NCBI GenBank assembly: GCA_029932915.1
Contig: JAOZPE010000027.1
Location: 1 to 38,945 of the forward strand
Source: Candidatus Krumholzibacteriia bacterium
GTDB taxonomy: Bacteria; Krumholzibacteriota; Krumholzibacteriia; JAJRXK01
Length of the DNA: 38,945 nt
Direction of reading: 5' to 3'
Within the stretch, counting starts at the first letter, position 1. Each line of letters opens with the position of its first letter. Position numbers and translations under genes: made by a program. Positions 8,965 to 30,754 of this stretch are shown here, in pieces. The notes below the pieces were generated by a model. That model saw only the letters and a list, made by a program, of their open reading frames with translations, made no database searches and was not told the DNA's origin.

Positions 8965-10098
8965 ATGCGAAGACACGAGCGAATCCGGGGAGGACGCGCA
9001 GCGGGGGCGCAGGCGCTGCTGCTCTGCGCGCTGTTGTCGATGCTGATGGTGTCGGCTGCGGTAGGGCCGATGGGGGTTGCGCGCGCGGCGGCATTCGGCA
9101 GCGAGTTGCAGGGGCCCGCCCGGGCGGGCTCCTCGCTGTCGGTCCGGGTGGGAAGCGATGCCTTCCTGCCGCCGGAGCATGCGAGGGGCGAGCTCGCCTT
9201 CGGGGGCGAAGGCGGGGAGGGTGCGGCCGGCTGGACCTACGGAGGCTCTTCGGCCGAAAGGGACGGTCAGCCGGTGCCGGGCCAGCTGTCCGGCGAGGAG
9301 GGCTACCACCTGGGCTGGGGTTCACAGGCGATGGTGCTGGCCGGCTACGGCGTCCTCTACGGCATCGCCAGCCACGTGGGCAGCCGTCATCGCAGCGACG
9401 GACAGTTCAAGGTGGTACGCCTGGAGACCGCCTACGCCTACGACTTCGTGGGCCATGCCTTCCTGGTGCGGGAGATGGGAGGCATCGCGGCGGCGCTGCA
9501 GCGCGCGGCCGGGGTGCCGGCCGGCCGGGCGCGCCACGATGGGGTCTGGCTGGGGGCCTTCGGCAGCGAAGTGTACATGGAGGTGCTCAACGGCTTCGTC
9601 CCGGGCATCCGCTTCGATCCGCTCGACCCGGTGGCCAACTTCGTCGGGGCGATGATGGCCACCAAGGGCCGTGACCTGGCCGCCCGCCACGAGTGGATCG
9701 CCCGCATGTCCCTGCAGTTCGGCTACAAGGACTGGCAACGGGCCTTCGAGCCCTCGCGCGACGATGCCACCCTCGGGGCGGTGTGGCACGACCACACCAA
9801 CGGCCGCTTCGGACTGGGATATGACATCGGACCCTTCGAGCGGCCCTGGATCACCGCCTACCTGAGCTATGAGATCACCAGCCTCGACCTCGATGAGCTG
9901 AAGAACCGCTTCGGCGTGGGCGTCGAGCTGGAAGTGGTCAACTGGCTGGCTCCGCTCATCCACCGCCTGCCCGCCGGCGATCTCTTCCTGCAGGGCTACG
10001 ACTGGTTGAACCGGCGCATCCTGATGCCGGTCCTCTACGTGCAGCTCTTCCACGTGGATGCACCGCCCTTCAGCGGCCGGCCGCCCTTCCACGAGTAG
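8965..10098 (+). CDS. Exported DUF2279-like protein, function unknown
   Basis: The protein is 377 aa from the ATG at 8965 (MRRHERIRGGRAAGAQ). That start gives a basic n-region, a hydrophobic core (ALLLCALLSMLMVSAAVG) and a signal-peptidase-like ARAAA site, so it is probably periplasmic or outer-membrane associated. An in-frame GTG at 8911 is possible but would give an unusually long n-region. The middle resembles DUF2279 proteins: AYDFVGHAFLVREMGG, then GVWLGAFGSEVYMEVLNGFVPG and DPVANFVGAMM. The last 120 residues contain aromatic, strand-like stretches (WITAYLSYEITS, GVGVELEVVNWLAPL) that might be envelope anchored. No catalytic motif is recognised. It follows lysR by 57 bp and precedes a DUF212 gene. 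The DUF2279 link is by pattern and needs a profile search. Confidence 0.7.
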   Translation: MRRHERIRGGRAAGAQALLLCALLSMLMVSAAVGPMGVARAAAFGSELQGPARAGSSLSVRVGSDAFLPPEHARGELAFGGEGGEGAAGWTYGGSSAERDGQPVPGQLSGEEGYHLGWGSQAMVLAGYGVLYGIASHVGSRHRSDGQFKVVRLETAYAYDFVGHAFLVREMGGIAAALQRAAGVPAGRARHDGVWLGAFGSEVYMEVLNGFVPGIRFDPLDPVANFVGAMMATKGRDLAARHEWIARMSLQFGYKDWQRAFEPSRDDATLGAVWHDHTNGRFGLGYDIGPFERPWITAYLSYEITSLDLDELKNRFGVGVELEVVNWLAPLIHRLPAGDLFLQGYDWLNRRILMPVLYVQLFHVDAPPFSGRPPFHE

Positions 10099-10113
10099 GA
10101 TTCGCCTGGGCGC

Positions 10114-10142
10114 TTGCCGCAGACGCGGCTTGGGCCTAGCCT
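10114..10142 (+). promoter_or_regulatory. Candidate promoter for the DUF212 gene
   Basis: TTGCCG (10114-10119) and TAGCCT (10137-10142) are 17 nt apart. Transcription would start near 10149, about 34 nt before the ATG at 10183, which also supports that start over the longer open frame beginning at 10114. Confidence 0.45.
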
Positions 10143-10182
10143 TGCCCCGCCGTCGGATCATTCCCCCAACGCAGCGGGCATC

Positions 10183-10626
10183 ATGTTCATCGGAAGCATC
10201 GGCTGGCTGTCGTTGGCCAGCATGGCGATCGCCCAGCTCCTCAAGCCCCTCTTCACCCTGCATCGGGAAGGGGTGCGCTCGCTGAGCCGCATCTTCGACA
10301 CCGGCGGCATGCCGAGCAGCCACAGCGCCCTGGTGACCACCCTGACCCTGTGCATCTACCGGGCCGAGGGCGGCCAATCGATCCTCTTCAGCATCTCCCT
10401 GGTCTTCAGCCTGTACTTCATCTTCGAGGCCACCGGCCTGCGCCAGGAGGTGGGCCAACAGGCACGCGTGCTCAACCGCATGCTCGACGAACTGCACGAG
10501 ACCCACCAGGTGGATCGCCGCCGGCTGAAGGAACTGGTGGGCCACACCTGGCAGGAGGTGCTGGTGGGCATCGTGGTGGGTGTGGTGGTGTACCTGCTGG
10601 GCCGCGGCTGGATCCAGGTCGCCTGA
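10183..10626 (+). CDS. Divergent PAP2-family membrane protein (DUF212, YuiD-like)
   Basis: This is a 147-aa inner-membrane protein of the DUF212 family (PF02681), distantly related to PAP2 acid phosphatases; the substrate is unknown. The ATG at 10183 (MFIGSIGWLSLASMAIAQLL) begins directly with the first membrane segment. The family signature runs through the protein: LLKPLFTLHREG, DTGGMPSSHSALVTTL, GLRQEVGQQARVLNRM, and the C-terminal KELVGHTWQEVLVGIVVGV. PSSHS is the conserved PAP2-like core and the GHT...E..VG segment ends the fold. The length equals that of the usual family member. Its place next to glycan genes fits a role in lipid-phosphate turnover, but that is only an inference. Confidence 0.9.
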   Translation: MFIGSIGWLSLASMAIAQLLKPLFTLHREGVRSLSRIFDTGGMPSSHSALVTTLTLCIYRAEGGQSILFSISLVFSLYFIFEATGLRQEVGQQARVLNRMLDELHETHQVDRRRLKELVGHTWQEVLVGIVVGVVVYLLGRGWIQVA

Positions 10627-10926
10627 ACTGCGGCCGGTCCCAGCTCTCCTGGGCCGCCGTGCACCGGGGCTTCCGCGACGGAGGGTCGAGCCTTCCCGGA
10701 CCGTGGCCACCTCCGCATCCCCTGAAACGATTTGGACTTGACGCTCCGCTACTGACGGGGGAATCTGCCGGGGACAAGGCTTCCGCCAGGTCGCCCCGCG
10801 CATGAGGATCTCCGTGCCCCGCCCGGTGGGAGGACGGTCAACCGCCGAGCCCCCCGCGCCGCGCAACCGTGATCGGACAACGGGCTCCCTTCTGTCTGCG
10901 TCATCTCGCTCGCAGGGGAGGATCCG
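10627..10926. other. 300-bp non-coding stretch before the parA-like gene
   Basis: No supported gene lies here. A TTGACG hexamer at 10738-10743 resembles a -35 box, but nothing close to a -10 box is found 16-18 nt downstream (GAATCT at 10761 is poor). CAGGGGAGGATCCG just before 10927 is a strong ribosome site. An imperfect GCGGCC...GGCCGC fold right after the DUF212 stop could be a weak terminator. No tRNA or riboswitch class was recognised. Confidence 0.5.
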
Positions 10927-12015
10927 ATGCGCGTCGTTTCCGTGGCCAACCAGAAGGGCGGCGTGGGCAAGACCACCGTCGCCGTCAATCTCGCGTCCGC
11001 CCTCGCCCGCCTGGGGCGCGACGTCCTGCTCATCGACAACGATCCGCAGGGACACGCCACCGCGGCCCTGGGCGTCGAGCCGGCCCACTTCGGCTTGAGC
11101 ACCCGCGATCTGTACATCGACGGAGGGGTGAAGGTCCAGGATCTGCGGATCGAGATCACCAATGGGCTGCACCTGGTTCCGGCCGACCTCGACCTGAGCA
11201 CGGTCGAACAGGATCTGGCCGACGAACCGCGCAAGCTGCGCCGTCTGCTCGAGCGTCTGGCCATCTCGCAGATGCCCTACGACGTGGTGCTCATCGACAA
11301 CCCGCCCCAGGTGGGGGTTCTCACCTTCAACGCCCTGTTGGCCAGCTCCGAGGTGCTCCTGCCCGTCGACGCCAGCCGCTTCTCCGTCGAGGCGGTCGAA
11401 CGCTTCGAGGCCACCCTGCGCGGCCTGCAGCAGGAGAGGGGGCATCGTCCGCAGTTGCGGATCGTGGCCACGGGCTTCGACCTGAGGACCCGCTACGCCC
11501 GGCGCGTCCTGGAGGACATCGACGCGCTCGAACCGGGGCGGCGGGTGCGCACCCTCATCCGTCCGACGATCCGCCTGAGGGAGGCCGCCCAGGCGGGCCT
11601 TCCCATCGACCGCTTCGATCCGAGCAGCCACGGCGCACAGGACTTCAGCGCCCTGGCGCGCGAGTTCGAGGGCCACGACTGGATCATCCAGCACGACGAA
11701 CTGCTCGAATGGGAGGAGCTGCTGCACGGGCCGGGTCCGCAGAGTCCGGGCGTGCACTTCCGCGCCTACTTCCCCCATGCCCGGAAGGTGTGTGTCACCG
11801 GCGACTTCACCGACTGGTCGGTGGAGGGCATCGACCTGCGGCCGGAGGGCGATGGACACTGGAGGGTCGAGGTGGACATCCCGCCCGGCTGCTACGAGTA
11901 CAAGTTCATCGTCGACGGCGAGTGGACCCCCGATCCGGAGAACCCCGAGCAGATCCGCAACACCTACGGCCAGTTGAACTCGGTGCTGACCGTGCCCGAG
12001 CGGGACGGCCGATGA
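10927..12015 (+). CDS. ParA/MinD-type ATPase fused to an AMPK/CBM48 glycan-binding domain
   Basis: The protein is 362 aa from an ATG behind GGGGAGG. Residues 1 to about 250 form a ParA-type deviant Walker ATPase: NQKGGVGKTT with Lys10 and Lys15, LLIDNDPQGHATAALG, and VVLIDNPPQVG with Asp124. Residues 280-356 match the glycogen-binding domain of AMPK beta/isoamylase early-set (CBM48) proteins. The glycan-contact residues known from AMPK beta all have counterparts: Trp297 (GDFTDWS), Lys326 (YEYKFIVDG), Trp333 (GEWTPDP) and Asn351 (QLNSVLTV). This suggests a cytoplasmic ATPase that binds or senses alpha-glucan-like polysaccharide. It heads the second glycan cluster and lies just before an unknown gene and a Wzz-type gene whose kinase-like tail lacks a P-loop. 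No ParB partner is adjacent, so chromosome or plasmid partition is unlikely. The domain calls are strong; the role is inferred. Confidence 0.93.
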   Translation: MRVVSVANQKGGVGKTTVAVNLASALARLGRDVLLIDNDPQGHATAALGVEPAHFGLSTRDLYIDGGVKVQDLRIEITNGLHLVPADLDLSTVEQDLADEPRKLRRLLERLAISQMPYDVVLIDNPPQVGVLTFNALLASSEVLLPVDASRFSVEAVERFEATLRGLQQERGHRPQLRIVATGFDLRTRYARRVLEDIDALEPGRRVRTLIRPTIRLREAAQAGLPIDRFDPSSHGAQDFSALAREFEGHDWIIQHDELLEWEELLHGPGPQSPGVHFRAYFPHARKVCVTGDFTDWSVEGIDLRPEGDGHWRVEVDIPPGCYEYKFIVDGEWTPDPENPEQIRNTYGQLNSVLTVPERDGR

Positions 12016-12019
12016 GCTG

Positions 12020-12595
12020 ATGGATGAGGCGAGCGGCCATTCGCTTCAGCAGCGCTGGGAACGGGTGGCCCGCAGCTACCTGCGGCCGGCGCCGGTCGGC
12101 GCCTTCCGGCTGGCGGTGGCCGGAGTGGACGATGGGCTGGAGGTGAGCCGTCTCGCCGCCGATCTGCGCCGCTGCGTGGCCGAACTGGGTCTTCCCCTGC
12201 AGCCGAGCCCGCATGCCTCGTGGGTGGAGATCGTCGAGCTCGGAGGTGTCGACGAACGGCGCCTCGGCGAGCTGGCACTGGAGCGCTCCGGCCCGATCGA
12301 TCTGCTGGTGTGGCGCTTCGTGGGAGAGGGGGCGCCCGGTCCCCGGGCCCTCTACCTGATGGGGGTCTTCGCCTGGGCCAAGGCGGCGGCCGAGCTGGCG
12401 TGTGTGGTGGGGGGAAGGCCTACCCTCGATCGCGAGCTGGAGCTGCTGGCCGCGGCCGGCTTGACGACCCCGGTGCATCTGCACCTGCTGCCCCCTTCGC
12501 CCGCCGATGCCGCCGACGCCGCGCTGAAGGGCCTCGTGCAGGCGGCCCTGGCCCGGGCCGACGCGCGCCGCCGTCTCGCCGCCGCCAAGGGTTGA
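12020..12595 (+). CDS. Unknown cytoplasmic protein, 191 aa, between ParA-CBM48 and Wzz genes
   Basis: I do not recognise this family. The ATG at 12020 follows the parA-like stop by 4 bp, so the genes are likely coupled. There is no signal peptide or membrane helix. FRLAVAGVDDGLEVSRLAADLRR (about residues 28-50) has the strand-loop-helix shape of a P-loop ATPase, but the Gly-Lys-Ser/Thr signature is absent. SGPIDLLVWRFVGEG and PVHLHLLPP look like later strands of an alpha/beta fold. It may therefore be a degenerate relative of the ParA/BY-kinase group, but this is a visual guess and needs a structure prediction. The C-terminus is Ala/Arg-rich and helical. Codon use matches its neighbours. Confidence 0.75.
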   Translation: MDEASGHSLQQRWERVARSYLRPAPVGAFRLAVAGVDDGLEVSRLAADLRRCVAELGLPLQPSPHASWVEIVELGGVDERRLGELALERSGPIDLLVWRFVGEGAPGPRALYLMGVFAWAKAAAELACVVGGRPTLDRELELLAAAGLTTPVHLHLLPPSPADAADAALKGLVQAALARADARRRLAAAKG

Positions 12596-12722: not shown

Positions 12723-14489
12723 ATGAATGAAACACCTCTGGCCCCCTACCTCTCCTTCGCCCGAAGGCACCGCTGGTCGTATCTGGCCGCGCTGCTCGTG
12801 TCCGTGCTGGGCACGCTCGCCTATCTGATCGCCTCTCCCACCCTGTATCGAGCGACGGCCACCACCATCGTTCCCTACCGGCAGGTGGAGGCCGATCTGC
12901 GCTTCGGCAACGGCCGCCCCTTCCCCGTCCAGTATGCCTTCGTGGTGAACAACCACCTGGCGGTGCTGCGCAGCGGATCGACGCACCGGGCCATCCTGCA
13001 GGCGCTGGCCCGGGAGGCCCCCGATCTGCTGGAGGAGCTGCAGGCGGGCGCATCGGGAACGGAGGAGGCGCGGCAGGAGCAGCTCCTGCGCGCCCTGCAG
13101 GGCCGACTGCGGGCGAGTTCGCGCGACAAGACCGGACTGCTGCAACTGGAGGCCACCGCCTCCAGCGCCTCGAGGGCGGCCCGGCTGGCGAACCTGTCCC
13201 TGAAGACCTACGCGGTGGTCCAGGACAGCCTGAACAATGCCGCCCTGGTGGAGTGGCTCGGGAAGCTGAAGGAGGAGGAGCAGCAGTGGGCCCGGACCGT
13301 CGCAGAGAAGGAGGAGGCGCTGCGCCGCTTCCGCAGCCGTGAGCGGGCCATCGACCTGGAGAACGAGGGGCGCGCGGTCATCCACGAGATCCTTCGCCTG
13401 CAGGGCCTGCAGGTGCAGGACACGGCCGAACTGGAGAGCCAGAGGGCCCGCCTGAGCGAGCGCAAGGCGCAACTGGCCCGCATCTACGAGGACTTCCAGC
13501 AGAGTCTGAGCAGCGATGCCGCCTCGGTGGCAGGCAGTCTGCGTCAGCAGCTCAGCCTGGACCAGGCCCGCCTGGAGTACCTTGTGGCCTCGGGCATGGC
13601 CACGGACGACCCGCAGATCGAGGCTCTGCGCGCGCGCATCGCGCGGGCCGGGGCCGTGCTGGAGGAACAGGCGTCGACCCTGCCGTCGGATCCGTCGATC
13701 GAGGGTGACCCGGTGCTCCTGGCCGAGGCCTTGTTGAATGCGATCCGGGAGATCGAACCGGAGATCGCCGGTCGCAAGGCGCAGGTCGCCGAGCTCGACA
13801 CGGCCATCGATTCACTGCAGCAGCGCATGGTCGTCCTGCCGACCCTGGCCTCGGCCGAATCGCGCTACGAACAGGAGCTGAAGCTGGCGCGCCAGATCTA
13901 CGAGCTGGTGCAACAGAGGCGGGTGGAGGCGGAGATGATCGCCCACCGCCATGGTTCCCGCCTGGCCATCATCCATCCCGCCGAACCCCCGCAGAGGCCG
14001 GCCTCGCCGCGGCCGCTGCTGGCGATGGTCTCGGCCCTGCTCATCACCCTGCTGCTGGGAACGGTGGCGGCGGTCGGGGTCGAGGCGGTCGATCCGACGG
14101 TCCGCGATGCCCAGGACGCCGGCCGGATCAGCGGATGGACCGTCCTGTGCCGTCCCCGGCGCGAGGGGGGCGGCGTTGCGCCGGAGGTGGCCGCCGCGGT
14201 CGTTGCCCAGCGTCTGGACACCGGTGGGGCGGGCCTGTGGCTGCTCGATCCCGAGGGCGAGCCGCTGGACACCCTGCAGCGGGCGGTCCAGAACCAGTTG
14301 GCCGCCGCTGAGGCGGGAGTGCGCGTGGGTGCGGGTGATCTGGGAGCGTTGCTCGCCGAGTCGACGGCCAAGGCGTGGGTGGTCGTGGTGGTCGTGCACG
14401 TCCGCAGGACTCGGCGCAGCAGTCTGATCGACACCACCCGCCTGCTCCAACAGGGTTCGAACCTGGCGGGCGGCCTCCTGGTCCAGTGA
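12723..14489 (+). CDS. Wzz/GumC-type polysaccharide chain-length protein with a P-loop-less kinase-like tail
   Basis: This 588-aa inner-membrane protein probably controls chain length and export of the polysaccharide. It has a short cytoplasmic start (RRHRWSYLAALLVSVLGTLAYLI, TM1), a Wzz-like segment (LYRATATTIVPYR), and a long periplasmic coiled-coil region (about residues 110-390, with repeated Glu/Arg/Leu heptads). Then come the GNVR-like part (ESRYEQELKLARQIYELVQQ), the Pro-rich AEPPQRPASPRP, and TM2 (LLAMVSALLITLLLGTVAAVG). The last ~120 residues resemble a shortened tyrosine-kinase domain (GLWLLDPEGEPLDTLQ, then AWVVVVVVHVRRTRRSSLID) but have no Walker A motif and no Tyr-rich tail. AAGGAGGG lies about 20 bp before the ATG, and a weak promoter-like TTGGCG-N17-TACAAG lies at 12669-12697. 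It ends in a GTGA overlap with the next gene. Confidence 0.88.
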   Translation: MNETPLAPYLSFARRHRWSYLAALLVSVLGTLAYLIASPTLYRATATTIVPYRQVEADLRFGNGRPFPVQYAFVVNNHLAVLRSGSTHRAILQALAREAPDLLEELQAGASGTEEARQEQLLRALQGRLRASSRDKTGLLQLEATASSASRAARLANLSLKTYAVVQDSLNNAALVEWLGKLKEEEQQWARTVAEKEEALRRFRSRERAIDLENEGRAVIHEILRLQGLQVQDTAELESQRARLSERKAQLARIYEDFQQSLSSDAASVAGSLRQQLSLDQARLEYLVASGMATDDPQIEALRARIARAGAVLEEQASTLPSDPSIEGDPVLLAEALLNAIREIEPEIAGRKAQVAELDTAIDSLQQRMVVLPTLASAESRYEQELKLARQIYELVQQRRVEAEMIAHRHGSRLAIIHPAEPPQRPASPRPLLAMVSALLITLLLGTVAAVGVEAVDPTVRDAQDAGRISGWTVLCRPRREGGGVAPEVAAAVVAQRLDTGGAGLWLLDPEGEPLDTLQRAVQNQLAAAEAGVRVGAGDLGALLAESTAKAWVVVVVVHVRRTRRSSLIDTTRLLQQGSNLAGGLLVQ

Positions 14490-15973
14490 GCACGATCCCC
14501 GAGCGCCGTTCCCTGTCTCTCTTCCTGACGGATCGCCTTCTGGCGCTCAGTTTCTTCCTGTTGCCGTGGATCGGTGTGGGCGTGATGGCGCTGCTCGGCG
14601 GCAGGAGCCCGGGCACGGGAGCCCAGCCCGCGCTCTTGACCGGGGCCCTGGTCCTGTTGTCGGCGCTCTTCCTGGGCCGCCCGCACGTGGACCGCGACGG
14701 CGAGCGCATCCTGGCCGTGTTGAGCTGGACCGTCCTGGGGGCCGCCGCGGTCTGGGGACTGGACGAGATGGGCCTGCAGGGCGACTGGCCCTGGTTGAAG
14801 GCGCTCAAACAGCTCATCCAGTTGGTCTATTTCTTCGCGCTGGCCTCGGTTCCGGCGATGGTGCTCTCGCGTTCCCCGGATCCGGCCGGTGTGCTGTGGC
14901 GATGGGAGAGGGCGGCCAGCGCGGGCATGCTGGTGGCCTCGACGGTGGGCCTGTACCTGGCCGCTGCGTTCTATCTCGATCTGCCCGGCCGCGACGCCCT
15001 GATGCGCGTCTTCAGCTCGAATCCCTCGATCGCCGCCGGCAGCGACGAGCTCTTCCTGGGCCAGCATTTCGTCGGGATCGTCCGGGTGCGCTCGGGGGCG
15101 GCCGAGCCCCTGTACTTCGGCAGCTATCTGCTGTGTGTCCTGCCCGCGACCGCCGTGGCCTGGGTGGCGGCCGGCCGCTGGGGGCGTCTGTGGAGAGGCG
15201 TGGCCCTCATCCTGGGTCTGGCCTCGATGGTCCTCACCTTCAGTCGGGGCGTCTATCTTGGAGCGGCGCTTTTGCTCACGCTCGTGGCGGTGGCGATGGG
15301 GCGGGGTCTGTTGCCGCGGCCCCGTCGCAGGACCGTGCTCGTGGCGGCCGCCATCGGATTGGTCGGAGGAGGGGGCCTGGCGGCCGTGTTCAGCGGGGTC
15401 GCGCTGTGGGAACTTCCTGCGCTGATGCTGCGGCGGATGGCCCAGTCCTTCGCCTCGCACGATCTGAGCAACCTCACCCGCCTGGCCTCCTGGCACGCGG
15501 CGCTCGTCATGTTCCTGCAGCATCCGCTGCAGGGTGCGGGATGGGGAGCCTTCGGGTTCTGGTTCTATCGCATCGAAGGGGCGAGCGAGGCGCTCTTCGC
15601 CTGGCCGGTGACGAACAGTCTCCTCCTGCGGATCCTCGCCGAGACGGGAATGGTGGGCGCGTTGCTTTGGGCCCTGGCCCTGTGGCGTCCACTCGCGCCC
15701 CTGAGGTGGCCGTGGACGGCGGGTGGAGGCGTCGGTGCAGCGGGCGAGACCATGGGCATGTCCGGGCCGCCGGCGCGGGTCGGGGACGGGCCGGCGGTGG
15801 AGGTGAGCCGCCGGGCGCCATCGCTCTCGCCGGCGGTGGGCTTCGTCCTGGCCGCCACGGTGGCGGCGATGTTGTTGCAGTTGATGACCTTCAGCCAGAT
15901 CAACCTGCCCCACCTGTGGCTGGGTGCGGGGGTGGCGGCGGCCGTGGCGCGCTGTTCGACGGGGGAGGGCTGA
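14486..15973 (+). CDS. O-antigen polymerase/ligase-like membrane protein (second Wzy_C protein)
   Basis: This 495-aa polytopic inner-membrane protein probably polymerises or transfers the repeat unit of the block II polysaccharide. The GTG at 14486 overlaps the Wzz stop (GTGA); the longer frame upstream lies inside the Wzz gene. After a cytoplasmic lead (STIPERRSLSLFLTDR) there are about twelve hydrophobic segments. The PF04932 core is clear: VLTFSRGVYLGAALLL, HPLQGAGWGAFGFWFYRIEG, and NSLLLRILAETGMVGALLW. A Gly/Ala/Pro-rich insertion (about residues 410-450) precedes the last membrane pair. It differs clearly from the shorter homologue at 1835-3031, so the window carries two such enzymes, perhaps one polymerase and one ligase. 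Confidence 0.85.
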   Translation: MSTIPERRSLSLFLTDRLLALSFFLLPWIGVGVMALLGGRSPGTGAQPALLTGALVLLSALFLGRPHVDRDGERILAVLSWTVLGAAAVWGLDEMGLQGDWPWLKALKQLIQLVYFFALASVPAMVLSRSPDPAGVLWRWERAASAGMLVASTVGLYLAAAFYLDLPGRDALMRVFSSNPSIAAGSDELFLGQHFVGIVRVRSGAAEPLYFGSYLLCVLPATAVAWVAAGRWGRLWRGVALILGLASMVLTFSRGVYLGAALLLTLVAVAMGRGLLPRPRRRTVLVAAAIGLVGGGGLAAVFSGVALWELPALMLRRMAQSFASHDLSNLTRLASWHAALVMFLQHPLQGAGWGAFGFWFYRIEGASEALFAWPVTNSLLLRILAETGMVGALLWALALWRPLAPLRWPWTAGGGVGAAGETMGMSGPPARVGDGPAVEVSRRAPSLSPAVGFVLAATVAAMLLQLMTFSQINLPHLWLGAGVAAAVARCSTGEG

Positions 15974-20510: not shown

Positions 20511-20821
20511 TCGTTATCTCATAACAACTTAGCAACAGTGCCCCTTGACTGCCCATGGCTTCATGGGGTAGAATCGCTGATACGATCTCTTCGGACAAGC
20601 GCAGCTGTGTGATGGACAATCTGGGATCGGTCCGCATTTTTCGTCCTGGTCGACGACCCCATGGTTCGGGCTCCCGGCTGTCGCTGTTGAGGCGGCGGAA
20701 CAACGGGCCTTCCGGGTCGACAGAGATGAACACGCCGGGACCGTTTTTCCCCCCAAGCGCAACTCTTGCCTCGGCGCGGAGTCTTCCCCGTACCGGGCTG
20801 CTCACCACGAGGAGGAAGAAC
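20511..20821 (+). promoter_or_regulatory. 311-bp control region and long leader of the first C25 protease gene
   Basis: From left to right it holds an inverted repeat GTTAT-CTC-ATAAC (20513-20525), a -35 TTGACT (20545-20550), an 18-nt spacer and a -10 TAGAAT (20569-20574). Transcription would start near 20581, leaving a leader of about 240 nt. The spacer contains a perfect palindrome CCCATG-GCTT-CATGGG (20552-20567). The leader has several possible stems, including CGGTCC with a later GGACCG that is followed by TTTTT, but I match it to no known riboswitch class. GAGGAGGAAGAAC is the ribosome site at the end. Confidence 0.65.
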
Positions 20822-23800
20822 ATGGACCCCGTTCGCCGGGTTTCATCTCGTCTCGTTCTGGTTTCCCTTCTGATTCTCAGCCTGGCTCCTGTCGCTGCTC
20901 ATGCCGCCGGAATCGATCTGGCGGTTCGTTTCGATCCGCAACAGGTGCAGATCCATCGGGTCGACGGGCAGGTGAGCTATCGGCTCCCCGATACCGTCCC
21001 GCTGTATGCGGACGGCGCACCCGACCTTCCCTTCACCAACTGGAAGGTGGTGGTGCCGCAGGGCATGACCATCGAGAAGGCGGAGATCGTCGACGCCCAG
21101 TGGAAGACGGTGGATCGTCCGGCGGCCTTGCGACTGGCCGGCAAGCTCGTGAGCGACGAGGGGCAGCTCGTCCAGGACACCATGGGCGGACTGTCCTCCG
21201 ATTACGCTCCGGGGCAGGTGTTCCCTGCCCAGGCGGTGCGCAGTCTGGGGGTGTCCATCCTGCAGGGCTACCGGATCGGAGAGGTGCAGATCTTCCCCAT
21301 GCGGGTGAACGACGACGGCTCGGTGCAGGTGCTGCGCTCGGGACGGCTGCATCTGACGCTTGCTCCCAAGGAGATCGACGGTGTGGTGGTGCGGAAGGTG
21401 GCATGGCCGGGTCTGGCCGAGGAGGCGGCCCAGCGGGTGAAGAAGCTGGTGAGGAATCCCGAGCTGGTGGAGAGTTGCGCGCCGCCGGCGGGGATCCTGC
21501 CCGAGCTGATGAACTCCTCCTCGTACAAGTCACCGCATCCGGAACCGGGTGACGAGGTCTTCACCGGGGGACGCCTGGACTACGTCATCGTCACCACACC
21601 GGAGATGGAGGCGGAGTTCCAGCGTCTGGCCGACGACCACATCGCGCACGGTCTGCGCACGAAGGTCGTCACCACCGACTGGATCGTGGCGAACTACCGC
21701 AATGGAAGCGACCTGCAGGAGACGATCCGTTACTTCTTCCAGGAAGCCTATGAGAAGTGGGGCCTTCGCTACGCCCTTCTCGGCGGCGACGCGGAGATCA
21801 TCGCTCCGCGCTATGCCCGCAGCTATTGGTATCCACAGAACGGCTTCACCGACATTCCGTCCGATCTGTACTTCTGCGCGCTCGACGGCAACTGGAACGC
21901 CAACGGCAACGGGATCTTCGGGGAGGCCTACCAGTCCTTCCTCAAGACCGGCGACGACCAGGACATGGTGGCGGAGATCGCCCTCGGCCGCGCTCCGGTG
22001 AAGGATGCCCTGGAGGCGCAGATCTTCGTCGACAAGTGCCTGAGCTACCAGAACCCGACCGACGGGTCGTATCTGGGCCGCGCGCTGTTCATGAGTGAGG
22101 TGCTCTTCCCGTCGGACTGGGATGGCACATCCACTCCGAACCTCGATGGAGCCACCTACAGCGAGGACATCATCTTCAACAAGATCATCTCACCGGGCAA
22201 TCTCATCGACAGCTACCGCCTGTACGAGAACTACACCGCCTATCCGTACACGGTGCAGGAGACCAAGCAGGCATGTATGGATTCGCTGTCGACGGGGAAC
22301 TTCGGTCTGGTGAACCACGTCGGGCACGGCTTCTACTACAACATGAGCGTCGGGGACGGGAACATCTTCACCTCCGACGTGATGAGCCTGACCAACGCTC
22401 CCAACTACTTCGTCCTGTACGCGCTGAACTGCTCGTCGGGCGCGTTCGACTTCGACTGTCTGCTGGAGAGCTACATCCAACTGGGAAGCGGGGGAAGCGT
22501 CGCCAGTCTGGGCTCGGCCCGGGCCGCATTCCCCTCGACGGCGGACAACTACCAGCAGGAGTTCTACCGTCAGATCTTCGTCGAGGGAAACGTCCGCCTC
22601 GGCGATGCGATGAACGGCAGCCGCGACGCCTTCGTGCCGCCGGCGCTGAACGCGGAGGGCTTCGACCGCTGGACCCACTTCTGCTACACCCTGCTGGGCG
22701 ACCCCGCCCTGCGCGTGTGGCGCAAGGCCCCGGTCGCGGCCGAGGTGGCCATGCCGGCCACCGTCCCGCTGGGAACGGACTCGATCATGGTGACCGTCAG
22801 CGTGGGGGGAGCCCCGGTGGACAGCGCGCAGGTGACCCTGCACAAGAGCGGTGACGTGTGGGCGACGGGCATGACCGACAGCAACGGCGAGCTCGCCCTG
22901 CCCTTCCGCCCCAGCAGCGAAGGCCTGATCGACGTGCTGGTCTCCGGCCAGAGTCTGCAGCCCTGGCAGGGAACCATCGTGGTGGGCCCGGCGGTGGGCG
23001 CCAATATGGTGGCCCGCGCGCTGAGCGTCGATGACGGACCTTCGGGCGACGGAAGGGCCGACTCCGGAGAGACCATCGATTGGTACTTCGAATTCGAGAA
23101 CAACGGCGATGCCTCCGCACCGGTGGACATCTCTGCCATCCTGCGTCCGGTCGACGCGGTAGGGGCCACTGTCCTGGACTCGACGATCGTCGTGGGCACG
23201 GTGGCGGTGGGCGCTCCGGTAGCACCGGCCGATCCGGTGACCCTCCAGCTCGACCCGACCATCGCCGACGGATCGACGCTGAGCTTCGACATGGAGTGCA
23301 CCGACGGGATCGACAACTGGACGCAGCGGGTGGAGTTGCGCGTGGTGGCTCCCGAACCGCAGGTGGTCCGGCTCGTGGTGGACGATTCCAACACCGGCAA
23401 CGGCGACGGGGTCATCCAGGCGGACGAGCCGGTCGAACTGCATCTGGAGGTGAAGAACTACGGCGACGGCGAGCTGGTGGGACTCACCGGTCAGATCTAC
23501 GTGTCGACCAATGTCACCGCGTTCAACGACGCCGATTCGTGGCCGGACCTGGGGCTCAAGGAGAGCGCCTACGGGACGACCCCGTTCGTGGTGAGCGAGA
23601 GCGACGTGACGGTGGAGAACTGGATGTACGTGGTGTTGACCGACGCCAAGGGACATCTGTGGAAGCACTGGATGGAGCTGCGCGAGCCTCTGCCGCCGGC
23701 CGATCCCATTCCCAACACCGATCTGGGGCCGACCACGGTGGCCCTGGGGTGGGAGCCGACGCCGCAGGACCACATCTTCGGCTATCGCGTGTACCGCAGC

Positions 23801-25633
23801 GACAGTCCGACCGGTCCCTTCGTGGAGATCGAGCCCGACGTGATCGTGCGCTCGGGCTTCTACCGGGACGAGGATCTGGAGACGCTGACCCGCTACTACT
23901 ATCAGATCGCCACGGTCGACTCGTCCGGTCTGGAGAGCGCGCCGACCGAGGTCATCTCGGCGAGCACGGCACCTCCGGAGATCAACAATGCCTTCCCGCT
24001 GCCGACGAACTCGACGGTGGAGGGAGCGATCGCGGTGGGGGACATCCGCGGTGACGGAACGCTGTTCGCGGTGGTGGGCAGCCATCTGGTGTACGCGGTC
24101 GACGCCAACGCCAATCAGTTGGTCGATGGCGACGGTGATGCCCAGACCCTGGGACCGATCAGCGGCCGCGGAGCGAACTTCTGCTTCGCCGGCATCACCC
24201 TGGCCAACCTGGACGACGATCCGGCACCGGAGATCCTGGCCGGATCGTGGGACTCGACCCTGACCTTCGCGTTCGACAACGACGGCAGCGTGATGCCCGG
24301 CTGGCCGCAGAACACCGGCAGCCAGCACTGGGCTTCGCTGTCGGTCGCCGACATCGACGGCGATGGCGGACCGGAGATCGTGGTCAATACCACCGGGGGC
24401 AAGACCTACGCCTGGAATCCCGACGGCAGCGAGGTCCTCGACGGCGACAACAATCCCTCGACCAACGGGGTCTTCCACGTGCGCAGCGGCGAGATCTTCA
24501 ACCGCTCGACCATCAGCCTCTACGATCTGGACGGCGACGGGGCGAGGGAGATGATCTTCGGCACCAACTGGCGCGATGGAACCGACAACATGGTCTATGC
24601 CTTCCGTTACGACGGAACGCAGGCGCCCGGCTGGCCGCAGAATCTCGGCTCCGGCGGGTATACGACCAGCACGGTGACCATCGCCGACCTCGACCGGGAC
24701 GGAACGGTCGAGCTGATCATGCCGTGTGAGAACGACACCCTGTACATCTGGGAACCCGACGGAAGCAACTTCCCCGGCTACCCGCAGTTCTTCAAGAGCA
24801 ACAGCGGCAACCTCGACGGCAAGACGCCCTCGGTGGCCGTGGGCAACATGGACGCGGATCCGGAGCTGGAGATGATCGCGGTGAGTGTCCTCTCCCGCGC
24901 TGACGCCGACCTGTACGTGATGGACTACGACGGAACCGTCCTTCCCGGTTGGCCGCAGAAGCTGGCGGCCTTCTCGCGTTCGTCGCCCATCGTCGGTGAC
25001 ATGGACGGCGACACGATCCCGGACATCGTCTTCGCCGCCGGCGGCGAGGAAGAGCCCGACATCGTCTACGCCTTCAAGGCGAGCGGTGATCCGGTGGCCG
25101 GTTTCCCCATCGCCCTGGCCGGCACTCCGTGGGGGACGCCCGCACTGGCCGACTTCGACCACGATGGAGACGTCGACCTGCTGCTGGCCGGTTACGACAA
25201 TCTCCTGCACGTGTGGGACCTGCCCGGCGCGTACCGTCCGGAGTACCTGCCCTGGCCGACCTTCCAGGGCAACTACGAGCGGACCGGCGTGTACCGCGAG
25301 AGCACCGCGACCGGGGTCGATCCGGGCACGGGGACGGTGCCGACGGCGCGCCTGGTGATGCACCAGAACGTGCCCAATCCCTTCAATCCGTCGACGGTCA
25401 TCTCCTTCGACGTTCCCGCAGCCCTGGCCGGCTCGAGGGTGACCCTGGAGGTGTACGACATCGCCGGGCGGCGGGTCCGCGGCCTCCTGGCCGGGTCGCT
25501 GCCGGCGGGCCGGCAGCAGGTGCGCTGGGATGGGCGCGATGACCATGGGCAGAACGTGTCCTCGGGGGTATACTTCGCGCGCGTGCGCATGAAGGGTCAG
25601 ACCCAGAGCGTCAAGATGACCTTGGCGAAATAA
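20822..25633 (+). CDS. Gingipain-family (C25) secreted cysteine protease with FG-GAP-like repeats and FlgD-Ig-like C-terminus
   Basis: The protein is 1603 aa, starting at the ATG behind GAGGAGGAAGAAC. A Sec signal peptide (LVLVSLLILSLAPVAAHA) is cut near residue 28, followed by a propeptide-like region to about 230. The peptidase C25 domain (about 250-640) has YALLGGDAEIIAPRY and DLYFCALDGNWNANGNGIFG. The catalytic pair is His502 (VNHVGHGFYYN) and Cys537 (ALNCSSGAFDFD), 35 residues apart, close to the gingipain spacing. Ig-like domains and a CARDB-like region follow, then one fibronectin type III domain (WEPTPQDHIFGYRVYRS). Next come a run of VCBS/FG-GAP-like blade repeats (such as VADIDGDGGPEIVVNT) to about 1490, and the C-terminal PNPFNPSTVISFDVP...WDGRDDHGQNVSSGVYFAR domain. 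It is probably cell-surface or secreted. It is paralogous to the next gene. Confidence 0.92.
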   Translation: MDPVRRVSSRLVLVSLLILSLAPVAAHAAGIDLAVRFDPQQVQIHRVDGQVSYRLPDTVPLYADGAPDLPFTNWKVVVPQGMTIEKAEIVDAQWKTVDRPAALRLAGKLVSDEGQLVQDTMGGLSSDYAPGQVFPAQAVRSLGVSILQGYRIGEVQIFPMRVNDDGSVQVLRSGRLHLTLAPKEIDGVVVRKVAWPGLAEEAAQRVKKLVRNPELVESCAPPAGILPELMNSSSYKSPHPEPGDEVFTGGRLDYVIVTTPEMEAEFQRLADDHIAHGLRTKVVTTDWIVANYRNGSDLQETIRYFFQEAYEKWGLRYALLGGDAEIIAPRYARSYWYPQNGFTDIPSDLYFCALDGNWNANGNGIFGEAYQSFLKTGDDQDMVAEIALGRAPVKDALEAQIFVDKCLSYQNPTDGSYLGRALFMSEVLFPSDWDGTSTPNLDGATYSEDIIFNKIISPGNLIDSYRLYENYTAYPYTVQETKQACMDSLSTGNFGLVNHVGHGFYYNMSVGDGNIFTSDVMSLTNAPNYFVLYALNCSSGAFDFDCLLESYIQLGSGGSVASLGSARAAFPSTADNYQQEFYRQIFVEGNVRLGDAMNGSRDAFVPPALNAEGFDRWTHFCYTLLGDPALRVWRKAPVAAEVAMPATVPLGTDSIMVTVSVGGAPVDSAQVTLHKSGDVWATGMTDSNGELALPFRPSSEGLIDVLVSGQSLQPWQGTIVVGPAVGANMVARALSVDDGPSGDGRADSGETIDWYFEFENNGDASAPVDISAILRPVDAVGATVLDSTIVVGTVAVGAPVAPADPVTLQLDPTIADGSTLSFDMECTDGIDNWTQRVELRVVAPEPQVVRLVVDDSNTGNGDGVIQADEPVELHLEVKNYGDGELVGLTGQIYVSTNVTAFNDADSWPDLGLKESAYGTTPFVVSESDVTVENWMYVVLTDAKGHLWKHWMELREPLPPADPIPNTDLGPTTVALGWEPTPQDHIFGYRVYRSDSPTGPFVEIEPDVIVRSGFYRDEDLETLTRYYYQIATVDSSGLESAPTEVISASTAPPEINNAFPLPTNSTVEGAIAVGDIRGDGTLFAVVGSHLVYAVDANANQLVDGDGDAQTLGPISGRGANFCFAGITLANLDDDPAPEILAGSWDSTLTFAFDNDGSVMPGWPQNTGSQHWASLSVADIDGDGGPEIVVNTTGGKTYAWNPDGSEVLDGDNNPSTNGVFHVRSGEIFNRSTISLYDLDGDGAREMIFGTNWRDGTDNMVYAFRYDGTQAPGWPQNLGSGGYTTSTVTIADLDRDGTVELIMPCENDTLYIWEPDGSNFPGYPQFFKSNSGNLDGKTPSVAVGNMDADPELEMIAVSVLSRADADLYVMDYDGTVLPGWPQKLAAFSRSSPIVGDMDGDTIPDIVFAAGGEEEPDIVYAFKASGDPVAGFPIALAGTPWGTPALADFDHDGDVDLLLAGYDNLLHVWDLPGAYRPEYLPWPTFQGNYERTGVYRESTATGVDPGTGTVPTARLVMHQNVPNPFNPSTVISFDVPAALAGSRVTLEVYDIAGRRVRGLLAGSLPAGRQQVRWDGRDDHGQNVSSGVYFARVRMKGQTQSVKMTLAK

Positions 25634-25696: not shown

Positions 25697-25786
25697 ACGC
25701 TCGGGCCTGGAATCTCCCGCCTGCGGCCGGAGAGGACGGGCCGGGCTTCGGTGGCTCCCAATGAAGCGTCCACCACCGAGGTGACG

Positions 25787-28700
25787 ATGATCCCGCCCAA
25801 CTGCGGTCCAGACCCGAGGACATCGCGGCATCCTTCCGTAACGCCCTTCCCGTCGTGGTCCTTGTCTGGCCGGCGCCTGCTTGCGGGGCTGCTGTTGTCG
25901 GCGGCCGCGCTGGCCACGGCCGGTCTCCACGGGCCGATTGCCTCGACGGGCGACGATCTGCGGGGATGGACCGCTGCACTGACCGATGCGCTGGTCCCAC
26001 CGGCGCAGGCGCGCGAGGCCGAGGCCGGTCTGCTCGTCCGCATTCCCCTTCACATCGAAGCTGCCGAACTGTCCGCCCGGCTCGCACAGGGAGGGGTGGA
26101 GGTCCATCTGCCCGGCTACCGGCTCGACCCGGACGATCCGCGGCCCCTGCGGCTGATGCGCGATCTGGCCGTGGTCATCCCCGCCGGGACCCAGGTGCGC
26201 GCGGTGCGTCTGGAAGGTGGCGCGACGGTGGTGGTGGACGCGGTCATGCCCGAGGACGAGAGCGGGGCGGCCGCAGTGGGACCGGATGGAGACGGCCCGG
26301 GCGCGTGGAGCCGGGGGGACGGCTGGTGGCACGGTGTGCACCTGGCCTTCGTCCGCGTCCGTCCGCTGGGATCGCGTGGCGGCCAGGCGGTGCTGCGCGA
26401 GGGCTGTGATCTGGTGGTGGAACTGGAGCGCTCGGGGGCCACACCGGTGGTGGCCCGACGGCTTCGAGCGGACGCCGAGCAGAGGCTCCATGTCCGCCGG
26501 CTGCTGGAGGCGGCGGTGGCCAATCCCGGCGAGCTGCTGCAGTTTGCTCCGGAGCTCATGGATCCCTGGCTCGCCCGGGCGCAAGCCGGCGGCGGCCTGG
26601 AGCCGGCGGCGGGAGAGCTGGCAGGTGGCGTAGACGGGGCGGAAGGGCTCCTGTCGGAGAAGACTCCGAGCCTGGGAAGCGGACCCTACCGCTACCTGGT
26701 GATCTGTCCGTCCGAGCTGGCCGCGGCCTTCGAGCCCCTGGCCGATTTCCGAGAGAGCCAGGGCCTGCCCTCGCTGGTGGTCACCCTGGACGAGATCCGC
26801 GCTGTCTACCGCGAGGGACTGGATCTGGCCGAGACCATCCGCCTGTACCTGCGGGACGCCTACGAGAAATGGGGGGTCGACTACGTCCTCCTCGGCGGCG
26901 ACACCGATGTCCTTCCCACCCGGCACGTGATCTCCACCTACTACCCGTCGGGCGGGGAGACGGAGATCCCGACCGATTGGTACTTCGCCGGGCTCGATGG
27001 GAACTGGAACGCCGACGGCGACGCCATCTTCGGCGAGGCCTACACCAGCGGCGCCGATCCCGGGGACTACTGCGACTTCATTCCCGAACTGGCCGTGGGC
27101 CGGGCGCCGGTGTCCACCGCACAGGAAGCGGCGGACTTCGTTCGCAAGGTGATGGCCTACGAGCGGGCCGAGGGAAGGGCGCGCTTCAACCGTGTGCTCT
27201 TCGCCAGCGAGGTGCTCTTCCCGCAGGACTGGCAACCGGGCGATACCATCACCCGCGACGGCGCCATCGTCAGCGAGGGTCTGTGGAACACCATCACCAC
27301 CGCTTCGGGTGGATCGTTCGAGGCGACCCGGCGTTATCAGAATTACACCGACTACCCGGGGGCGGTGGAGGAGACCAAGGCCGCGGTCCTCGCCGATCTC
27401 GAGTCGGGCGCGTACGGGTTGTTCCACCACGTCGGACACGGCTTCTACTACAACATGAGCGTGGGCGACAAGAACATCTTCGTGCAGGACGCCGACGGGC
27501 TGACCAACGGCAGTGACACCTTCGTGCTGATGGCACTCAACTGCGATTCGGCCGCCTTCGACTTCGACTGTCTCCTCGAACGCTTCCTTCGCAATCCCGA
27601 TGGGGGTTCGGTGGCTTCCATCGGTTCCGCCAGGGCGGCCTTCGACATCACCACCAACCAATACCAGCAGGCGCTGTACAAGGTGATCTTCGAGGCCCGG
27701 CGGCAGCGCCTGGGCGACGCCATCGTCGAGAGCCGCCGGGGTTTCGCCCAGAACACCTTCTACAACACCATCGACCGGTGGACCCAGCTCGTCTACGCCC
27801 TGCTGGGCGATCCGGCGATGCGGGTGTGGACCGCCACGCCCCGTTCGGTGACGGTCGATGCTCCCAGTTCGGTGACCACCGGCTCGGGTCCGGTGACGGT
27901 GGGCGTGCACGACAGTGGAGGGGCTCCGCTCGATTCGGTGGCGGTGGTGCTGCGCGCCGAGGGGCTTCCGCTGGTGGTGGAATGGACCGGCGCCGACGGC
28001 AGCGCCGTTCTCGATCTGCCGACCGATGTCGCGCGGAGCTGGACCCTGACGGTGAATGGCCGCGACATCCTGCCCTACCAGGGCAGCCTGGCGGTGGTGG
28101 CCGGCTCGGCGGCGCAGTTGTCGGTGGCCGGCTTCTCCGTGGACGACAGCGCCGGCAACGGGAACGGGCGCATCGAAGCCGGAGAGAGGGTCGCCCTGAC
28201 CGCGTTGGTGGTCAACGGCGGGGCCAGTGGGGTGTCCGGAGGCACCCTTCACCTGGAGTGCGACGATCCCTGGCTGAGTGTGATCGATGCGGAGACGGGT
28301 TTCCCTCCGGTGGGTGGCGGAGAACAGGCCACGGCCACCGGCAGCTTCACCGTGGAGGTGGCCGCCGACGTGCCCGACGCCCACTGGGCCACTCTGACGG
28401 TGAGCCTGGACGATGGGAATGGAGGGGTGTGGACCGATGAGGAGAGGCTGCCGATCGAGAACGGAGAAGTGGAGATCGTCGCCCTCGAGCTGGACGACGG
28501 CGCGGGCAACGGCGACGGCGTGGTCGACCCGGGCGAGGCGGTCGCCCTGCGCTTCACCCTGAAGAACTACGGCGCCGCCTCCATCGCGGGAGTGACGGGT
28601 GAGCTGATCTCGCTCGATCCGGCGGCCAGCGTCAGCGACGGAGCGGCGAGCTGGGGTCCGCTGGACGGGCCGCTCAGCACCGCGGTCAACGATGACGATC

Positions 28701-30754
28701 CCTTCGTGGTCGTCGAGGACGACACCACGGTTCCCCGCCTGTATCGCCTGCGGTGGACGACGAGTGAGGGAACGGTCGATTCGATCGACTTCGATCTGAG
28801 ACGGCCGGCGCAGGTGAGCGGCCTGAGCCCGGGTCAGGCCGGCGCGGGCTCGATCGTGTTGAGCTGGGACGCCTCGGCCGATCGCGATCTGATGGGCTAC
28901 GTGGTGTTCCGGCGCGAGGCGGACGGCGGTGTGTGGGAGCGGGTGAAGAACGATGTGCTCACCGCCGGAGCCCTGGTGGTGGACGAAGGCCTTCCCGGCC
29001 GCACGCTCTTCGACTACCGCGTGGAGGCTGTCGATCGCGGCGGTCTGCACGGGCCGGCCTCGGAGGTGGTGCAGGTGTCCACCGCTCCTCCGGAGGTGGG
29101 TTGCTTCCCGCTTCCGATGGGACAGGAGACCAGTGGCGCGCTGGCCGTCGGCAACCTGGACGCCGATGGGGTGCTCGACATGGCCGTGCCCAGCGACTTC
29201 ATCTACGCCATCGACGGGGAGTGCCGCGAGAAGGTCGACGGCGACGACAACGCGCAGACCTTCGGTCCGATCAGCGCGGTCGACGGTGGGTGGGGACCCT
29301 CCGGCCTGTCGATGGGCGACCTCGACGGGGACGGACTCGACGAGATCGTGGCCGAGAACTGGAGTTCGGCACAGATCTACGTGTACGAGGGGGATGGAAC
29401 GCTCCGGACGGGTTGGCCGGTGAAGATGACGGCCCAGGCCTGGACCACCCCGGTGCTGGGCGATCTCGATGGGGACGGGCGTCTGGAGATCGTCACCAAC
29501 GACGTGAATGGGTGGACCTGGGCCTTCCATGAGGATGGAAGTGAAGTGGCCGACGGGGACGGCGACGCGGAGACCGTCGGGCCCATCGCCCCGCAGCGGT
29601 CGGGTGAGGTGTACGGACGCACCACGCCGGCCCTGCTCGATGTCGACGGCGACGGCCATCCGGAGATCCTCTTCGGCTCGAAGTTCCTCGGCGATCAGCA
29701 CGAGTACTTCTACGCGCTGAAGGGCGATGGCAGTGGCAATGCCGGCGGATGGCCGAAGGACATGGGAGTGGACGCGCCGTTTCTCGCCAGCCCGGCCATC
29801 GGCGACGTCGACGGCGACGGGGAGGAGGAGATCGTCGCCCTGTGCGAGAGCAATTGGCTGTACGTGTGGGAGAAGGACGGCAGCGCGCTCTCACCCTTCC
29901 CGGTGTACGTGCTCTCGCGTTCGACCGCCTTCCTTTCCCAGGCCCCCTCGCCGGCGCTATGCGATTTCGAGGGCGACGGCCCGCTGGAGATCGTGGCGGT
30001 GTCGATCGAGGCAGCCAATCTGGCGCGGGTCCACGTCTTCGACCATCTGGGGCAGGAGAGGGCGGGCTGGCCGCAGACCGTGCCCGGCCTGTCCGAGAGC
30101 AGCCCGGTGGTGGCCGACCTCAACGGCGACGGACGGCTGGAGGTGGTCTTCGGCATCGGTGGCGGACAGGACAACCTGCCGAGTCTGCTCTACGCCTGGG
30201 AGGACGACGGCACCCTCCTGGACGGCTTCCCCATCCGTCTGGATGGTTTCGTGCGCGCCACGCCAACGGTCTGCGACTTCAACGGGGACGGCAACGCGAA
30301 CCTGGTGCTGGCCTCATGGGATCGCCTGATCCACGTGTGGGATCTGGGCGCCCCCTTCGACGCCGCCCATGCGCCCTGGCCCACCTTCCATGGGAACAGC
30401 CGACGCGACGGGGTCTACCGCGCCGCAGCGGGCAAGACCGTGACCGGCGGCGAGGGAATGCCTTCGAAGGTGGTACGCCTGCTTCCCAACCACCCCAATC
30501 CCTTCAACCCCTCGACGGAGATCGTCTTCGAGCTGCCGGCGGGTTTCAGCGGGAAGGTTTCACTTCAGATCCACAGCGTCGCCGGCCGGAGGGTCCGGAC
30601 GCTCTGGACCGGGCATCTCGACGCCGGGGTGCACCGCCTGCGCTGGGATGGACGTGACGGAGCCGGTGCGCCGGTCGCCTCCGGAGTGTACTTCGCCCAT
30701 CTGCTCGCCGAGGGCCGCCGCAGCGTCTCCCGCAAGCTCATCCTGGTTCGGTAG
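25787..30754 (+). CDS. Second gingipain-family (C25) secreted protease, tandem paralogue
   Basis: The protein is 1655 aa from the ATG at 25787 (GAGG 5 nt upstream); a GTG at 25751 is less likely. A long n-region precedes the signal core (LLAGLLLSAAALATAGL). Domain order equals that of the upstream protein. The propeptide comes first, then the C25 domain with VLLGGDTDVLPTRHV and WYFAGLDGNWNADGDAIFGE. The catalytic pair is His551 (FHHVGHGFYYN) and Cys586 (ALNCDSAAFDFD), again 35 apart. Ig/CARDB-like regions, a fibronectin-like domain (LSWDASADRDLMGYVVFRR), FG-GAP-like repeats (LGDLDGDGRLEIVTNDV) and a C-terminal PNPFNPSTEIVFELP...SGVYFAHL domain follow. The region before the peptidase is clearly diverged from the first copy. 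Its last 195 bp are overlapped by an opposite gene. No separate promoter was found in the 153-bp gap after the hairpin. Confidence 0.92.
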   Translation: MIPPNCGPDPRTSRHPSVTPFPSWSLSGRRLLAGLLLSAAALATAGLHGPIASTGDDLRGWTAALTDALVPPAQAREAEAGLLVRIPLHIEAAELSARLAQGGVEVHLPGYRLDPDDPRPLRLMRDLAVVIPAGTQVRAVRLEGGATVVVDAVMPEDESGAAAVGPDGDGPGAWSRGDGWWHGVHLAFVRVRPLGSRGGQAVLREGCDLVVELERSGATPVVARRLRADAEQRLHVRRLLEAAVANPGELLQFAPELMDPWLARAQAGGGLEPAAGELAGGVDGAEGLLSEKTPSLGSGPYRYLVICPSELAAAFEPLADFRESQGLPSLVVTLDEIRAVYREGLDLAETIRLYLRDAYEKWGVDYVLLGGDTDVLPTRHVISTYYPSGGETEIPTDWYFAGLDGNWNADGDAIFGEAYTSGADPGDYCDFIPELAVGRAPVSTAQEAADFVRKVMAYERAEGRARFNRVLFASEVLFPQDWQPGDTITRDGAIVSEGLWNTITTASGGSFEATRRYQNYTDYPGAVEETKAAVLADLESGAYGLFHHVGHGFYYNMSVGDKNIFVQDADGLTNGSDTFVLMALNCDSAAFDFDCLLERFLRNPDGGSVASIGSARAAFDITTNQYQQALYKVIFEARRQRLGDAIVESRRGFAQNTFYNTIDRWTQLVYALLGDPAMRVWTATPRSVTVDAPSSVTTGSGPVTVGVHDSGGAPLDSVAVVLRAEGLPLVVEWTGADGSAVLDLPTDVARSWTLTVNGRDILPYQGSLAVVAGSAAQLSVAGFSVDDSAGNGNGRIEAGERVALTALVVNGGASGVSGGTLHLECDDPWLSVIDAETGFPPVGGGEQATATGSFTVEVAADVPDAHWATLTVSLDDGNGGVWTDEERLPIENGEVEIVALELDDGAGNGDGVVDPGEAVALRFTLKNYGAASIAGVTGELISLDPAASVSDGAASWGPLDGPLSTAVNDDDPFVVVEDDTTVPRLYRLRWTTSEGTVDSIDFDLRRPAQVSGLSPGQAGAGSIVLSWDASADRDLMGYVVFRREADGGVWERVKNDVLTAGALVVDEGLPGRTLFDYRVEAVDRGGLHGPASEVVQVSTAPPEVGCFPLPMGQETSGALAVGNLDADGVLDMAVPSDFIYAIDGECREKVDGDDNAQTFGPISAVDGGWGPSGLSMGDLDGDGLDEIVAENWSSAQIYVYEGDGTLRTGWPVKMTAQAWTTPVLGDLDGDGRLEIVTNDVNGWTWAFHEDGSEVADGDGDAETVGPIAPQRSGEVYGRTTPALLDVDGDGHPEILFGSKFLGDQHEYFYALKGDGSGNAGGWPKDMGVDAPFLASPAIGDVDGDGEEEIVALCESNWLYVWEKDGSALSPFPVYVLSRSTAFLSQAPSPALCDFEGDGPLEIVAVSIEAANLARVHVFDHLGQERAGWPQTVPGLSESSPVVADLNGDGRLEVVFGIGGGQDNLPSLLYAWEDDGTLLDGFPIRLDGFVRATPTVCDFNGDGNANLVLASWDRLIHVWDLGAPFDAAHAPWPTFHGNSRRDGVYRAAAGKTVTGGEGMPSKVVRLLPNHPNPFNPSTEIVFELPAGFSGKVSLQIHSVAGRRVRTLWTGHLDAGVHRLRWDGRDGAGAPVASGVYFAHLLAEGRRSVSRKLILVR

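Follow-up and report, generated by a model that had tools for sequence, protein, structure and literature searches.

A Wzz/GumC-type co-polymerase with a short cytosolic tail lacking kinase motifs, encoded near a ParA-CBM48 ATPase in Candidatus Krumholzibacteriota

According to PMC12004946, the BY pseudokinases EcpK and HfsB work with kinase-less co-polymerases, as stand-alone proteins in the pairs EcpK/EpsV of Myxococcus xanthus and HfsB/HfsA of Caulobacter. The same paper credits Cuthbertson et al. with having noted fused co-polymerase/BY-pseudokinase proteins earlier. Experimental support for phosphorylation-independent chain-length control is recent and comes from EcpK. In the portion of a review of capsule chain length that was available (PMC12220298), the word 'pseudokinase' was not found. 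The literature searched contained no description of CBM48 combined with ParA or MinD and, judging by titles and abstract openings among the matches listed, no paper on polysaccharide in Krumholzibacteriota.

The stretch of DNA analyzed here (the window, 38,945 nucleotides) is the entire contig C77 of a 2.9-Mb genome of Candidatus Krumholzibacteriota. It encodes a co-polymerase between a ParA-type gene pair and a polymerase gene, with the following features:

10927..12015, + strand: ParA/MinD-type ATPase with a KGGVGKTT P-loop and a C-terminal CBM48/AMPK1_CBM domain (about 11737-12003)
12020..12595, + strand: 191-aa P-loop-less alpha/beta protein, a regular neighbour of ParA-CBM48 (AlphaFold2 model, family profile)
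12723..14489, + strand: Wzz/GumC-type polysaccharide co-polymerase, 588 aa (TIGR03007 and PF13807 GNVR matches)
12774..12848, + strand: first membrane helix of the co-polymerase, residues 18-42 (Kyte-Doolittle scan)
14013..14087, + strand: second membrane helix, core residues 431-455 (Kyte-Doolittle scan)
14088..14162, + strand: juxtamembrane segment common to Wzz proteins of the phylum, residues 456-480 (aligned tails of relatives)
14163..14486, + strand: unclassified cytosolic tail without P-loop or tyrosine, residues 481-588 (no Pfam or NCBIfam match)
14486..15973, + strand: Wzy/O-antigen ligase-like polymerase with a GTG start that overlaps the wzz stop (PF04932, E 1e-12)

Positions 12723-14489 form a single ORF of 588 aa, whose product matched TIGR03007 (the XrtA chain-length family) over residues 7-475 with an E value of 4.7e-22, at a score (77.9 bits) under the curated cut-off of 278.85. 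Matches to EpsF (E 7.2e-15) and, weakly, to PF13807 GNVR (E 1.6e-4) also stayed below the curated cut-offs. A helix scan combined with the profile match showed the PCP layout, in which two hydrophobic helices (residues 18-42 and 427-458, Kyte-Doolittle scan) flank a periplasmic, coiled-coil-rich domain. The ORF is a Wzz/GumC-type co-polymerase, and the TIGR03007 match and the two membrane helices bear out the assignment made in an earlier sequence-only reading of this DNA. Its best family is that of XrtA-type determinants with an adjacent kinase, a layout that also occurs on contig C1 of the same genome; unlike its TIGR03007 relatives, the window Wzz has neither a third membrane helix nor an adjacent kinase. 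A genome-wide scan of GTDB contigs with the Wzz found no relative.

Residue 460 of the protein falls at base 14100, and 133 residues follow helix 2. The sequence-only reading had described an unusual tail of about 120 residues at this place, but only residues 481-588 proved to be out of the ordinary. Residues 456-480 (the VRDAQDAGRISGWTVLCRPRR region) aligned with the juxtamembrane segment of Wzz proteins of the phylum, whether or not a kinase was present; GWTVLCRPRR of the window aligned with GWSVLASVPR and GWRVLASIPR of the Wzz-kinase fusions of two related genomes, G004 and G008. Since these residues form an ordinary juxtamembrane segment, the odd part of the protein narrows to 481-588. A motif scan upheld the earlier statement that the tail has no Walker A and no tyrosine cluster: the Wzz ORF contained no classical Walker A, and residues 456-588 held a single lysine and no tyrosine, leaving no C-terminal tyrosine cluster. 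In a six-frame scan of ORFs longer than 100 aa, the pattern [GA]x4GK[ST] occurred at two sites only, both in a ClpB-like gene near 33-35 kb. Judged by its motifs, the tail domain would be unable to bind ATP in the usual way. GC contents by codon position in the tail (0.81/0.53/0.86) resembled those of neighbouring genes, and the TGA stop of wzz overlapped the GTG start of wzy at 14486 by four bases. Because the codon-position GC remains in frame to the stop and the stop overlaps wzy, residues 481-588 are genuinely coding; a frame-shift or missing-kinase artefact was rejected on the same grounds.

Sequence comparisons of the tail yielded no significant similarity to kinases. Residues 481-588 had no match in Pfam, NCBIfam or plasmids, and the tail had none in viral contigs; the best match of residues 481-588 in 80 genomes of the phylum (E 0.0036) was judged to be chance, and that of the tail among PDB sequences (E 0.23) was unrelated. 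Two strings in which a rhythm of BY-kinase strands had been seen are both present in Wzz, and the best unfiltered HMM match of the tail was indeed the last strand-helix of a BY-kinase, at the correct end of the protein. However, its score of -0.3 bits was equalled or beaten by 87 of 2000 full shuffles and 64 of 1000 local shuffles (of which HMMER reported 1532 and 755, respectively, unreported ones being taken as lower-scoring), and was equalled by 12 of the 236 real-protein windows reported by HMMER. Measured against the shuffles, the tail-versus-kinase score therefore reached no better than the top 4-6%. Alignment with hhalign gave a probability of 0.3%, on a different part, none of the pairwise tail-kinase alignment scores was significant against shuffles, and an alternative MAFFT alignment set a valine strand of the tail on the Walker A' strand.

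Structure prediction of the tail, proposed earlier for comparison with kinase folds, returned alternating strands and helices but no P-loop match. The single-sequence AlphaFold2 model of residues 458-588, an Ala/Leu/Val-rich region, had a pLDDT of 59.2 and a pTM of 0.47. Against the PDB, this low-confidence model gave a best VIA Z of 3.4, to unrelated chains; no kinase or P-loop family was among the matches listed, which means little at pLDDT 59. The model does not decide for or against a P-loop-like fold.

The head of the protein pointed more clearly toward kinases. The best matches of the protein in the phylum were the Wzz-kinase fusions of G004 (E 3e-10, 781-aa frame) and G008 (E 3e-7, 779-aa frame), which have the juxtamembrane GWxVL..PR in common with the window Wzz but, unlike it, carry a full kinase domain with a P-loop and C-terminal tyrosines. 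Among the Wzz proteins of the phylum that were read, these two were kinase-fused forms with a P-loop; most of the proteins had a third membrane helix, and a kinase gene adjoined in the pairs that were located. All 13 plasmid matches of the window Wzz stopped at residues 465-476, and 11 of them were annotated as tyrosine autokinases. Head trees were built from rows picked from the loci by a motif filter (28 of the 36 extracted rows were kept after duplicate removal). The first placed the window Wzz with both fusions, together with a protein from locus L006, at a support of 97/96; a second tree, without L006 and L013, again placed it with both fusions (99/97). The branch of the window row was very long (3.2-3.9 changes per column), which makes its position unsure. 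Descent of the window Wzz from a fused-kinase lineage is supported by these sequence comparisons but uncertain.

We assign a probability of about 45% to the reading that the tail of this PCP-2 co-polymerase is a kinase-derived pseudokinase remnant. The PCP-2 (Wzz/GumC) protein would descend from a tyrosine-kinase-fused form, and we infer that the kinase domain shrank to a non-enzymatic cytosolic remnant, residues 481-588, that folds alpha/beta and acts as a scaffold. Control of the Wzy polymerase encoded next door would then run through assembly and contacts between proteins, in the way proposed for EcpK/EpsV, with no cycle of ATP and tyrosine phosphorylation. The pseudokinase proposed in the sequence-only reading survives in part: the motifs are absent and the head is nearest to Wzz-kinase fusions, whereas a significant kinase similarity and a fold match did not emerge. 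A remnant would also require the loss of much of the kinase domain, which speaks against this reading. Fused BY-pseudokinase PCP-2a proteins (SMc01795 and others), as listed in PMC12004946, resemble the window Wzz in their two helices, periplasmic domain and motif-less cytosolic C-terminus; the window tail differs from them in its length of about 108 aa and in having no detectable kinase similarity. The window Wzz is probably a short divergent variant of this already described co-polymerase/pseudokinase arrangement. Should the tail be a kinase remnant, it would be a very short example of chain-length control independent of phosphorylation.

Tentatively, the tail may instead have no kinase origin and be an unrelated or new extension into the cytosol, part of which may be disordered; the co-polymerase would then need no kinase, in the manner of the PCP-1 type. 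The lack of significant kinase similarity, the low-confidence model with its unrelated fold matches and the occurrence in the phylum of Wzz proteins that stop soon past helix 2 and have no kinase (421 aa in G017, 452 aa in G010) are all consistent with such an extension. The kinship of head and juxtamembrane segment with the fusions speaks against such an extension, as does a composition rich in Ala, Leu and Val with alternating predicted strands and helices, which is not obviously that of a disordered region.

The ParA-CBM48 protein encoded two genes upstream of wzz had been proposed to form a split control module with it. Its domain matches were PF13614 (E 3.5e-40), PF16561 (E 6.1e-15) and PF02922 (E 5.5e-9), and its nearest named relative, from a Candidatus Krumholzibacteriota MAG, was 61% identical. 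Full-length relatives (residue 1 to at least 353) were found in 57 of 80 genomes of the phylum and partial ones in five more. Three Omnitrophota loci (L128, L129 and L130) also encode full-length relatives, at 34-35% identity. Gene neighbourhoods were compared in 23 distinct Krumholzibacteriota loci, comprising surroundings from 20 of the 57 genomes with a full-length protein and three further ones, after five duplicates had been dropped. By tblastn and HMM searches, a co-polymerase was found near ParA-CBM48 in none of these 23 other loci. The tblastn search for Wzz also spanned all 80 loci of the wider ParA locus set, and no homologous locus bearing a Wzz came to light. The window row had gone into the Wzz HMM, which makes the HMM's match in the window circular but not its misses in the other loci. 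In an HMM search for BY-kinases in the 23 loci, nothing scored but ParA itself. Given the 0/23 count and the wide distribution of ParA-CBM48, the proposal of a Wzz/ParA-CBM48 split module is not supported by co-occurrence.

Co-occurrence of the three genes across genomes, which had also been put forward, held for ParA and the 191-aa gene (21/23 loci) but not for wzz. A match to the 191-aa family lay directly 3' of ParA in those 21 loci, of which 14 had been used in profile building and seven were independent. The regular partner of ParA-CBM48 is the 191-aa gene family, not Wzz. The family was absent from the three Omnitrophota ParA-CBM48 loci. It is fast-evolving, with an N-terminal motif kept (HHIxxIAHxFLS type); its sites include window 12020-12595, L041 8741-9703, L045 11214-12116 and a position 3' of ParA in L043. 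The AlphaFold2 model of the window protein (pLDDT 84.2, pTM 0.76) is a five-stranded alpha/beta structure with strands at residues 29-35, 69-76, 95-100, 125-131 and 152-157. Foldseek returned no match at E 0.001 or better. Among the structural neighbours listed, a CpaE-like domain was best (Z 12.2, rmsd 2.6, 121 aligned), EF-Tu and small GTPases followed close behind, and no BY-kinase appeared. Because CpaE-like domains, EF-Tu and small GTPases are all near, the predicted fold is the common doubly wound type, from which kinship with BY-kinases does not follow. Two family members without an intact P-loop, from G008 and G004, matched the MinD/ParA nucleotide-binding model at sub-threshold levels (E 1.1e-3 and 1.4e-4, respectively), and some 191-aa relatives look, by their sequences, like ParA minus its P-loop. 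The window resembles EcpK/EpsV and HfsB/HfsA in that a co-polymerase without an active kinase is encoded alongside a P-loop-less alpha/beta protein, here of five strands. Unlike EcpK and HfsB, the 191-aa protein goes phylum-wide with an active ParA-CBM48, usually with no co-polymerase near.

With only four bases between the ParA stop and the 191-aa start, a 127-base gap before wzz and an overlap of wzz with wzy, the four genes are close-packed. This packing would suit a split module in which ParA-CBM48 serves as an ATP clock and the 191-aa pseudo-ATPase and the Wzz tail make non-catalytic contacts, together replacing the kinase cycle. Glycosyltransferase and WecA-like genes were present in only 13 of the 23 ParA loci. 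By ORF reading, 11 of these 13 encode, between the 191-aa relative and wzy, a small membrane protein that starts with a signal-like helix, continues with a beta-rich part and ends in a membrane helix. The window lacks this protein and Wzz fills its place; a search elsewhere in the window genome, run with no positive control, gave no match to it. In G002 and G003, the small membrane protein is fused in frame with a 191-aa-like domain, a hint that the products of both positions may touch. The fusion frames (L037 8375-9589 and L038 8317-9507; 405 and 397 aa) belong to the genus of G002 and G003. Its position, taken together with this fusion, is the sole indication of a link between Wzz and the ParA pair. 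We consider the split module unlikely, with no co-polymerase near ParA-CBM48 in the other loci and with only 13 of them carrying glycosyltransferase and WecA-like genes, which implies that the ParA pair has a use without polymer control. It is likewise quite improbable that ParA-CBM48, whose CBM48 domain is glycogen-binding-like, and its P-loop-less partner form, across Krumholzibacteriota, an envelope glycan or cargo control module in which the ParA cycle replaces tyrosine phosphorylation; its membrane partner would be exchangeable, being the small membrane protein in most lineages and a kinase-less Wzz in the window. Should the ParA pair drive the co-polymerase, a Wzy polymerase would be under the control of a nucleotide clock that is not a BY-kinase.

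Contig C1 encodes a normal BY-kinase, its end rich in tyrosine, beside a second, normal Wzz and an export protein, but service of the window Wzz in trans by this kinase, with the tail merely docking it, is highly improbable, as the kinase has its own adjoining Wzz partner and the genes of the other Wzz/kinase pairs that were located in the phylum adjoin each other. Another Wzz is encoded on contig C63 of the window genome.

At locus L211 of G010, a 238-aa protein without Walker A or Pfam match (10686-11402) adjoins the 452-aa kinase-less Wzz (9331-10689), and an SLBB export protein is also encoded there. This arrangement looks like an EcpK/HfsB-type pair. Downstream in the window, positions 20555-25633 and 25751-30754 encode a tandem pair of giant C25-family peptidases, which carry FG-GAP repeats and FlgD-like C-terminal domains; most relatives have similar genes close to ParA-CBM48.
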